NCBI GenBank assembly: GCA_017849585.1
Contig: JAFIGT010000021.1
Coordinates: forward strand, 124,001-188,000
Source: Verrucomicrobium sp.
Lineage (GTDB): Bacteria > Verrucomicrobiota > Verrucomicrobiia > Methylacidiphilales > UBA1321
DNA: 64,000 nt
Direction of reading: 5' to 3'
Under the pieces are notes generated by a model, which was given only the letters and a program-made list of their open reading frames with translations, made no database searches and was not told the DNA's origin. The position numbers and the translations under genes were made by a program. Shown here piece after piece: positions 43,483-46,815 of this stretch; position 1 is the first letter of the stretch; each line of letters begins with the position of its first letter.

Positions 43483-44163
43483 CTACCTCTTTTGAAACTT
43501 CGCGATGTAGGCGTAGCGGCGTGCGACCGATTGCACGGTGAGGGTGCCGAGACCTTTTTCCTCCCACGCGCGTAACTGTGTGAGGAGTTCCGGCCGGTGG
43601 GCGACGTGGAATTTCTTCAGCCAGCCGCGCAGCATCTTGCCGAACCACGCGGGGAGGTCGCCCTGATCCCAGAAATCGACGATGTAGAGCGTGCCGCCCG
43701 ATTTCAGGTTGGCCAGTCCCGCTTCGAGGGCGAGCGGCCAGGTGGGGATGATGGAGAGCGAGTAGGAGAAGAAAAGCGCATCGAAAGGTTCACGCAGGCC
43801 GAAGGTCGTTTCGTGGCGGAGATTTTCCGCCAGCTCGGGTCGCAGAATGATGCGTCCGATCAGTCCTGATTTGCGGAGATTCTTTTCGGCGGTCTCCAGC
43901 ATTTGGCGGGAGGCGTCGAGGCCGTAGAGTTCGACCTTCGGATTGCGCTTGGCGAGACCCACCAGATTGCGCGCCGTGCCGCAACCGATTTCAAGCACGC
44001 GATCGCCGGGCTGCAAAGCCGGGGCCATCTGGTCGAGGAGCTGATCGCGGCCCAGGAGATAGTATTTGCGGGAGAGGTCGTAGATGTGCCGCGTGAGGCG
44101 GTACATCTGGTCCATGGCCTGCGATTGATCGGCCGGGGCGGTCAACGTATCGGCGTTGCTCAT
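43483..44163 (-). CDS. btaB: S-adenosylmethionine-dependent N-methyltransferase, BtaB-like
   Basis: BtaB methylates the homoserine moiety of the lipid made by BtaA three times to give the betaine lipid DGTS. The 226-residue protein has the SAM-binding motif VLEIGCGTARNLVGLAKR and LYGLDASRQML, the downstream FFSYSLSIIPTWP, and VDFWDQGD. The N terminus MYRLTRHIYDLSRKYYLLGRD is characteristic of BtaB proteins. It is 15 bases downstream of btaA on the same strand, giving the gene order of the known btaA-btaB pair. It has no membrane helix and probably acts at the membrane surface. Confidence 0.88.
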   Translation of the reverse strand: MSNADTLTAPADQSQAMDQMYRLTRHIYDLSRKYYLLGRDQLLDQMAPALQPGDRVLEIGCGTARNLVGLAKRNPKVELYGLDASRQMLETAEKNLRKSGLIGRIILRPELAENLRHETTFGLREPFDALFFSYSLSIIPTWPLALEAGLANLKSGGTLYIVDFWDQGDLPAWFGKMLRGWLKKFHVAHRPELLTQLRAWEEKGLGTLTVQSVARRYAYIAKFQKR

Positions 44164-44178
44164 GATGGGGGAGGCCGG

Positions 44179-45414
44179 TTAGCGGTCCATCGTGTAGAGA
44201 TGGAAGCCGCCATAGATCGAGGAGCGGTCCTTCTTGAAGAGCGTTTGCGAGCGTTCTTCCTGATAGGTGAACTTTTTGCGGAGTTCGGGCGAAAGGGCGG
44301 TTTCGATGGGGGACTGGCTGGCGGCTGTGCGGAAGATGACGCGGGAGCCGGGACGGCCCACGCGGGCGACTTCGCTCCAGAGTTCTTGCATCTGCGCGGG
44401 CTTCATCCAGTCCTGCGAGTCGAGGAAGACAAACCGGTCGAGGCTCTTGGCGGGTTGCGTGCGCATGAAGCCGGTGAGCGTGCCGACGTGGGTTTCCACG
44501 CGATCGACATTGTCGCGCAGGGTGTCGAAATTTTGCGGTTGGAGATATTCCGGCAGCGCGCGGCGGAAGGCGCGGTCGTAGCTGCGGCCAAAGGCCTGCC
44601 AGCCGAAATAATTGTCATCGATCGGGAAGTCGCAGGCGAGGCGCTCGATGCGTTCGCGATAGACGTTGATCATGCCGCCGCCGGTCTCGGTTTCCATGGC
44701 GCGGAATTGTTGCGGCGGAATGCCGAGACTGTAGAGGGCGAGGGGCATCTTGCCCGCGCCGCGCACGAGCCAGTGGTCAAAGAAGGGTTCAATGTCTTCC
44801 TGATAGATGCGGCGCTGTTCCGCGGAGGTGGAGGCGGTGAGCAGGCGGGAGGGGTCGCGGCGGTGCACCTTCATGATGATGTGCAGGAAGCGCAGGAAAT
44901 AGCCGAGCTTGGCGTAGTCGTAGAAATTCTTGGTGAAGTACTTGATGCGCGGGCCAAAGAAGAGGCGGCGAATCCAGTTGCCGCCCTCCCAGAAGCGCTT
45001 CATTTCCGGGTCCATGTGTTCGGCCAGGTGGGCCTTATAATTCGCCCAGTTGCGCTTGTCATTGGCGCAGCCGAAGAAGAGGAAGAAGTCTTCGTAGTCG
45101 GGGAGGTGGCGGAGTGCGGCGAGCTTGAGTTTGAGAAGACAGATGTGGTTGCGGTTGAGATCGACGGCGTGGATTTTTTCCGGCGACTTGGCGAGGTAGT
45201 TCAGGACATTACAGCCGCCGGAGGAAATGGTGAGGATGCGGGTGGTGTCGGTGACTTCCATCGCTTCGAGGTCGACGCGCGGGTCTTCCCAGATTTGATT
45301 GTAGACAAAGCTGTTGAACCAGAAGGTAAAGAGGCGCTCGGAGATGCCATGACGGCTCAGAGGCGAATGTTGATGGACGGCATCTTCGAGTAATTCCGCT
45401 GTTTTCACGCTCAT
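44179..45414 (-). CDS. btaA: S-adenosylmethionine:diacylglycerol 3-amino-3-carboxypropyl transferase (BtaA)
   Basis: BtaA transfers the 3-amino-3-carboxypropyl group of SAM to diacylglycerol, the first step of the betaine lipid diacylglyceryl-trimethylhomoserine. The 411-residue length matches the DUF3419 family (about 400-420). It shows WFNSFVYNQIWEDPRVDLEAM, RILTISSGGCNVLNYLAKSP (SAM-binding loop), IHAVDLNRNHICLLKLKLAAL, and the end RSSIYGGFHLYTM. The gene starts a two-gene unit with btaB. Expression in many bacteria rises under phosphate limitation; no Pho box was recognised here. Confidence 0.92.
   Translation of the reverse strand: MSVKTAELLEDAVHQHSPLSRHGISERLFTFWFNSFVYNQIWEDPRVDLEAMEVTDTTRILTISSGGCNVLNYLAKSPEKIHAVDLNRNHICLLKLKLAALRHLPDYEDFFLFFGCANDKRNWANYKAHLAEHMDPEMKRFWEGGNWIRRLFFGPRIKYFTKNFYDYAKLGYFLRFLHIIMKVHRRDPSRLLTASTSAEQRRIYQEDIEPFFDHWLVRGAGKMPLALYSLGIPPQQFRAMETETGGGMINVYRERIERLACDFPIDDNYFGWQAFGRSYDRAFRRALPEYLQPQNFDTLRDNVDRVETHVGTLTGFMRTQPAKSLDRFVFLDSQDWMKPAQMQELWSEVARVGRPGSRVIFRTAASQSPIETALSPELRKKFTYQEERSQTLFKKDRSSIYGGFHLYTMDR

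Positions 45415-45474: not shown

Positions 45475-46815
<1,341 letters not shown>

Follow-up and report, generated by a model that had tools for sequence, protein, structure and literature searches.

Two adjoining genes in a 64-kb stretch of verrucomicrobial DNA (the whole of which is referred to here as the window) raise the question of whether their host can make a phosphorus-free membrane lipid, and whether it would do so in response to phosphate shortage. The genes of interest are as follows.

44179-45414, minus strand: btaA, 411 aa, predicted S-adenosylmethionine:diacylglycerol 3-amino-3-carboxypropyltransferase, a DUF3419 protein
43483-44163, minus strand: btaB, 226 aa, predicted diacylglycerylhomoserine N-methyltransferase, a class I SAM methyltransferase

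The btaB gene lies downstream of btaA on the same strand, separated from it by 15 bp. We assign a probability of about 90% to the reading that btaA and btaB form a small operon for synthesis of the betaine lipid DGTS. In this pathway, BtaA would transfer the 3-amino-3-carboxypropyl group of S-adenosylmethionine to the free hydroxyl of diacylglycerol, yielding diacylglycerylhomoserine, and BtaB would then methylate the amino nitrogen of this product three times, again with S-adenosylmethionine. The predicted product, DGTS, is zwitterionic and free of phosphorus and would serve as a stand-in for phospholipids when phosphate is short. We infer both reactions, as well as this physiological role, from characterized proteobacterial relatives.

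The surroundings of the pair are unremarkable with respect to lipids. Upstream of btaA lies the divergent gene tgt (queuine tRNA-ribosyltransferase), with yajC and secDF beyond it, and downstream of btaB lies a glycogen-phosphorylase-like gene on the opposite strand. Since there is no lipid gene among these neighbors, btaAB stands alone in the window genome, where btaA is the sole DUF3419 gene of the 4.79-Mb assembly. An Rfam search over the 64-kb window returned no match, a scan for sigma-70 promoters found none, and a search of viral contigs recovered no relatives.

To what extent are these proteins genuine BtaA and BtaB? The BtaA protein matched the Pfam family DUF3419 (PF11899; cut-off, 28.2 bits) with 346.5 bits and an E value of 2.8e-103, across profile positions 7 to 384 of 385. 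BtaB scored above the cut-off for several Methyltransf Pfam families, the best being Methyltransf_31 (6e-14). Neither protein reached an NCBIfam equivalog cut-off; BtaA had no NCBIfam match of any kind, and a dedicated BtaB model was absent among the matches listed for BtaB. Thus, of the two family assignments in the original prediction, profile searches confirmed DUF3419 for BtaA and placed BtaB among the Methyltransf families, without a dedicated BtaB model in the matches listed. Sequence comparison was informative for both proteins. Over its whole length, the window BtaA is 43 to 44% identical to the BtaA proteins of Rhizobium leguminosarum and Shinella, and the window BtaB is 42% identical to the products of the genes that adjoin btaA in Sinorhizobium meliloti and R. 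leguminosarum. R. leguminosarum and Shinella served as the BtaA references because the Sinorhizobium btaA that we recovered (L031) is split into two frames; Rhodobacter sphaeroides BtaA was not among the recovered loci. The split gene, in S. meliloti Ak57 (L031:3953-5202), consists of two overlapping frames, reflecting a frameshift or a sequencing error, and sits on a 3.7-Mb record labeled pSymB. In S. meliloti, btaA is SMc01848, which is annotated as needed for DGTS synthesis (PMC12542648), and DGTS is made via BtaA and BtaB in both S. meliloti and R. sphaeroides (reviewed in PMC3972451).

The pairing of the two genes is also widely conserved. We examined 80 named loci carrying the BtaA proteins nearest to that of the window, drawn from Planctomycetota, Acidobacteriota, Gamma- and Alphaproteobacteria, and Desulfovibrionales; in 74 of them, the retrieved flanking sequence encodes a BtaB homologue. 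The window BtaB and the rhizobial and other partners of BtaA also have invariant columns in common. In a phylogenetic tree, BtaA of the window's family (UBA1321; see below) was placed with rhizobial, planctomycete, and other BtaA sequences, while a third DUF3419 subfamily branched off on a long branch with a support of 100. The identities of both genes and their adjacency, as originally predicted, are therefore borne out, and on these sequence grounds the window pair almost certainly encodes the known two-step DGTS pathway and is ordinary in kind.

Among the closest known systems, those of S. meliloti and other Rhizobiaceae have the same two protein families in the same order and adjacency, with full-length identities of approximately 42 to 44%; they differ from the window in phylum and in flanking genes, and sinorhizobial btaAB is PhoB regulated (PMC3972451), whereas the window copy has only a weak match to a Pho box. 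Closer in sequence are MAGs of Planctomycetota and Thiotrichales (L047, L050, L051, and L053), whose BtaA proteins rank among the nearest named relatives from outside the family (54 to 56% identity) and whose btaB adjoins btaA; we found no experiment in the literature on BtaA or BtaB from these MAGs.

An AlphaFold2 model of the window BtaA (pLDDT, 90.5; pTM, 0.91) shows a SAM-methyltransferase core into which a large helical segment is inserted. Foldseek returned nothing below an E value of 1e-3 for this model, and searches of solved structures with BtaA, both by single sequence and by profile, found no relative of it and no solved DUF3419 structure; support from the fold therefore covers the SAM core only. 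Within the realigned Foldseek list, SAM methyltransferases dominate, with Z scores of 11 to 13 over 158 to 226 residues. Several residues are invariant in 54 BtaA sequences, namely, S65-G-G-C-N69 (after strand 1), D85-L-N87 (after strand 2), L331-D332, and Q334-D-W-M337. Judging from their place in the modeled fold, these residues would form the SAM site.

The original prediction had tentatively attributed the DNA to a verrucomicrobium from gene content, and this attribution was correct. The closest named BtaA, at 98% identity, is that of the MAG "Verrucomicrobia bacterium Tous-C9LFEB," which was obtained from the Tous reservoir in Spain (PMC5673642) and is listed in the Methylacidiphilales (PMC8706344). 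The same study assigned the genus JABDGH01 to the candidate family UBA1321, sister to the methanotrophic Methylacidiphilaceae (PMC8706344). The JABDGH01 BtaA (L044) is 67% identical to that of the window, and we filed the window's genus in UBA1321 because L044 and the genome G410, which is of the same family as the window genome, carry the same locus. Within this family, 11 of 12 genomes have a BtaA-type gene, the lone exception being a genome that is 66% complete, while none of the 50 genomes examined from the remaining families of the Methylacidiphilales had a DUF3419 match. Two MAGs from the BOG_genome_mining set (L045 and L046), whose records are titled Bacteroidetes and Betaproteobacteria, have BtaA of the UBA1321 type (66% identity), and these titles are probably wrong. 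In sister-genus genomes (L125, L126, L129, and L132), a citrate-synthase family gene, checked against Pfam in one case, lies close upstream of btaA, and several of these genomes also have a protein of about 535 aa without a Pfam match near btaAB.

How did the family come to have this gene? In a tree of 61 BtaA sequences, the UBA1321 family formed a single clade (support, 100) that lay amid Thiotrichales, Planctomycetota, and Acidobacteriota and was separate from the Alphaproteobacteria and from a second verrucomicrobial lineage of BtaA. The family's BtaA is a branch of its own, with identities of 43 to 56% to the other named sequences in the comparison. These data make it likely that BtaA reached the family by horizontal transfer, and we slightly favor an arrival separate from that of the other verrucomicrobial lineage; such a history is compatible with DGTS synthesis. 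It is suggested by the position of the clade among Planctomycetota, Acidobacteriota, and Gammaproteobacteria, by an identity of 54 to 56% to planctomycete and thiotrichalean BtaA versus approximately 30% to that of other Verrucomicrobiota, and by the absence of BtaA from the 50 genomes of other Methylacidiphilales families. On the other hand, a tree that joined both verrucomicrobial lineages was not rejected (AU P = 0.34, a value that is indicative only, as both tested groups were chosen after the tree was seen), and shared descent with losses is therefore possible. A tree that grouped the UBA1321 BtaA solely with the alphaproteobacterial sequences was rejected (P = 0.0007, indicative only for the same reason).

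We also considered where the diacylglycerol for DGTS synthesis would come from. A PlcP-like phosphoesterase adjoins btaAB in Thiothrix, in Thiomicrorhabdus, and at two other Verrucomicrobiota loci, L013 and L014 (family code f23), where its gene is directly beside btaA-btaB, resembling the arrangement in Phaeobacter. With the Thiomicrorhabdus protein as the query, a PlcP-like protein went undetected in 12 UBA1321-family genomes; the same query recovered relatives in 7 of 7 comparison genomes, down to 27 to 29% identity. The family may use an enzyme other than the usual one to supply diacylglycerol. With no PlcP-like gene detected, the family differs from the Thiothrix loci and from Phaeobacter sp. 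MED193, whose plcP-btaA-btaB cluster (PMC4796936) has the same lipid genes as the window together with plcP; the window's family instead has btaAB attached to pst-phoU in one member.

That member, G410, belongs to a sister genus and encodes pstS, two permease reading frames, pstB, phoU, btaA, and btaB in this order on one strand (L128:6931-14487), with a Pho box of 27.6 bits ahead of pstS. In this family member, the arrangement thus ties btaAB to the phosphate regulon. An Escherichia coli-style Pho box (CTGTCAT-N4-CTGTCAT) did not score clearly above shuffled sequence at any tested promoter, those of pst included, and we replaced it with a matrix built from the family's own pst promoters. These promoters have a clear direct repeat, approximately CGTCACA-N4-CGTAACA, and score 22 to 28 bits; with the matrix built from five of them, the held-out pst promoters of L163 and L166 scored 24.6 and 22.1 bits. 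In the window, the upstream region of btaA contains one candidate site.

45580-45597, plus strand: weak Pho-box-like element, TGTTGCAGAACTGTAACA, an imperfect palindrome, 10.4 bits with the family matrix

This element precedes btaA by 166 to 183 bp, lies upstream of the divergent tgt as well, and is the second-best site of the 64-kb window. The idea that a Pho box precedes btaA thus fared unevenly, as the site about 174 bp upstream scores 10.4 bits, compared with 22 to 28 bits for pst boxes. For phosphate regulation more broadly, the family's pst genes have a clear Pho box and btaAB ends a pst-phoU run in one relative, but the window promoter has only a weak match. The seven-site family matrix was also run on 87 btaA loci of other taxa. 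It located five sites of at least 15 bits, each no more than 300 bp upstream of btaA, and none elsewhere (P of about 2.5e-7); Fundidesulfovibrio, Mesorhizobium, Roseospira, a gammaproteobacterium, and a verrucomicrobium of the second lineage (L004) are among the taxa concerned.

It is possible, though we consider it somewhat unlikely, that in the window's genus btaAB is constitutive or serves another stress, such as acid or temperature, outside the phosphate response. The low score of the best promoter match relative to the pst boxes points in this direction, as do the location of btaAB outside the pst-phoU region in the window genome, where phoU is on another contig, and the failure to detect the tested PlcP-like enzyme in the family. 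These points are countered by the position of btaAB after phoU in the pst run of G410 and by the conservation of the weak element in both sequence and distance in L124, where it precedes btaA by about 182 bp and tgt is not a neighbor. In addition, sites of at least 10 bits are rare in family DNA (approximately 0.03 per kb, or about 1% for the upstream region). Phosphate control of the window copy is plausible. A broader picture, in which a largely uncultured freshwater and peat family remodels its membranes with DGTS, ties btaAB to pst-phoU, and obtains diacylglycerol without the PlcP used by other DGTS makers, is one that we put forward only tentatively. Least probable by far is that the pair makes another aminolipid, such as diacylglycerylhomoserine with no or incomplete methylation, or a homoserine lipid built on an ether backbone, for although substrate choice is not readable from sequence and the UBA1321 BtaA is a distinct branch, most members of the clade keep BtaB next to BtaA, and the window BtaB has the invariant columns of rhizobial and other partners.

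Finally, we asked how the DGTS operon proposed for the window compares with what is present elsewhere in the phylum. A DUF3419 match was found in 39 of 387 sampled Verrucomicrobiota genomes, 15 of which, including the window genome, score above 330 bits. The other 14 high-scoring genomes make up the second, distant BtaA lineage (approximately 30% identical to the window BtaA), and in 12 of these a BtaB homologue adjoins or overlaps btaA. Most of the remaining DUF3419 genomes belong to the third subfamily, without btaB (0 of 15 members tested have btaB beside the DUF3419 gene). Genes of this third subfamily lie in a conserved verrucomicrobial cluster (L133:2453-12292, L134:3051-13513, L171, L172, L173, L174, and L176) that includes some or all of an HMG-CoA reductase, a UbiA prenyltransferase, a PPDK/PEP-utiliser protein, an AMP-binding ligase, a SEC59-like protein (a reading made without a Pfam match), and an unnamed protein of about 350 aa. 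This cluster, which is not in the window genome, may represent an undescribed aminolipid or isoprenoid pathway.

Verrucomicrobia have been named among the bacteria with reported betaine lipids (PMC10667739, 2023); one of the articles cited there (PMC4796936) describes PlcP, not DGTS, in a verrucomicrobium, and we found no lipid measurement for the UBA1321 family in the literature. The suggestion that this locus would be a first record of betaine lipid production for the phylum does not hold as worded, given that 14 other sampled genomes carry btaA, mostly with an adjoining btaB, and that the phylum is already listed. The btaAB pair also occurs in other Verrucomicrobiota and in several other phyla; what is new is the pstS-pstCA-pstB-phoU-btaA-btaB run in one member of the UBA1321 family.

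Collectively, these data would place the DGTS pathway across a whole, little-studied candidate family of the Methylacidiphilales whose members occur in bogs, soils, and freshwater reservoirs. They also provide a set of genomes in which phosphate-driven lipid change could be tested, along with a possible cultured relative, strain LW23 ("Astrumicrobium roseum"), which has been described as the family's sole cultured member (PMC8706344 and PMC7251102) and for which G417 is a candidate genome. If the predicted pathway operates, betaine lipids in such waters and in peat need not stem from algae, fungi, or Proteobacteria.
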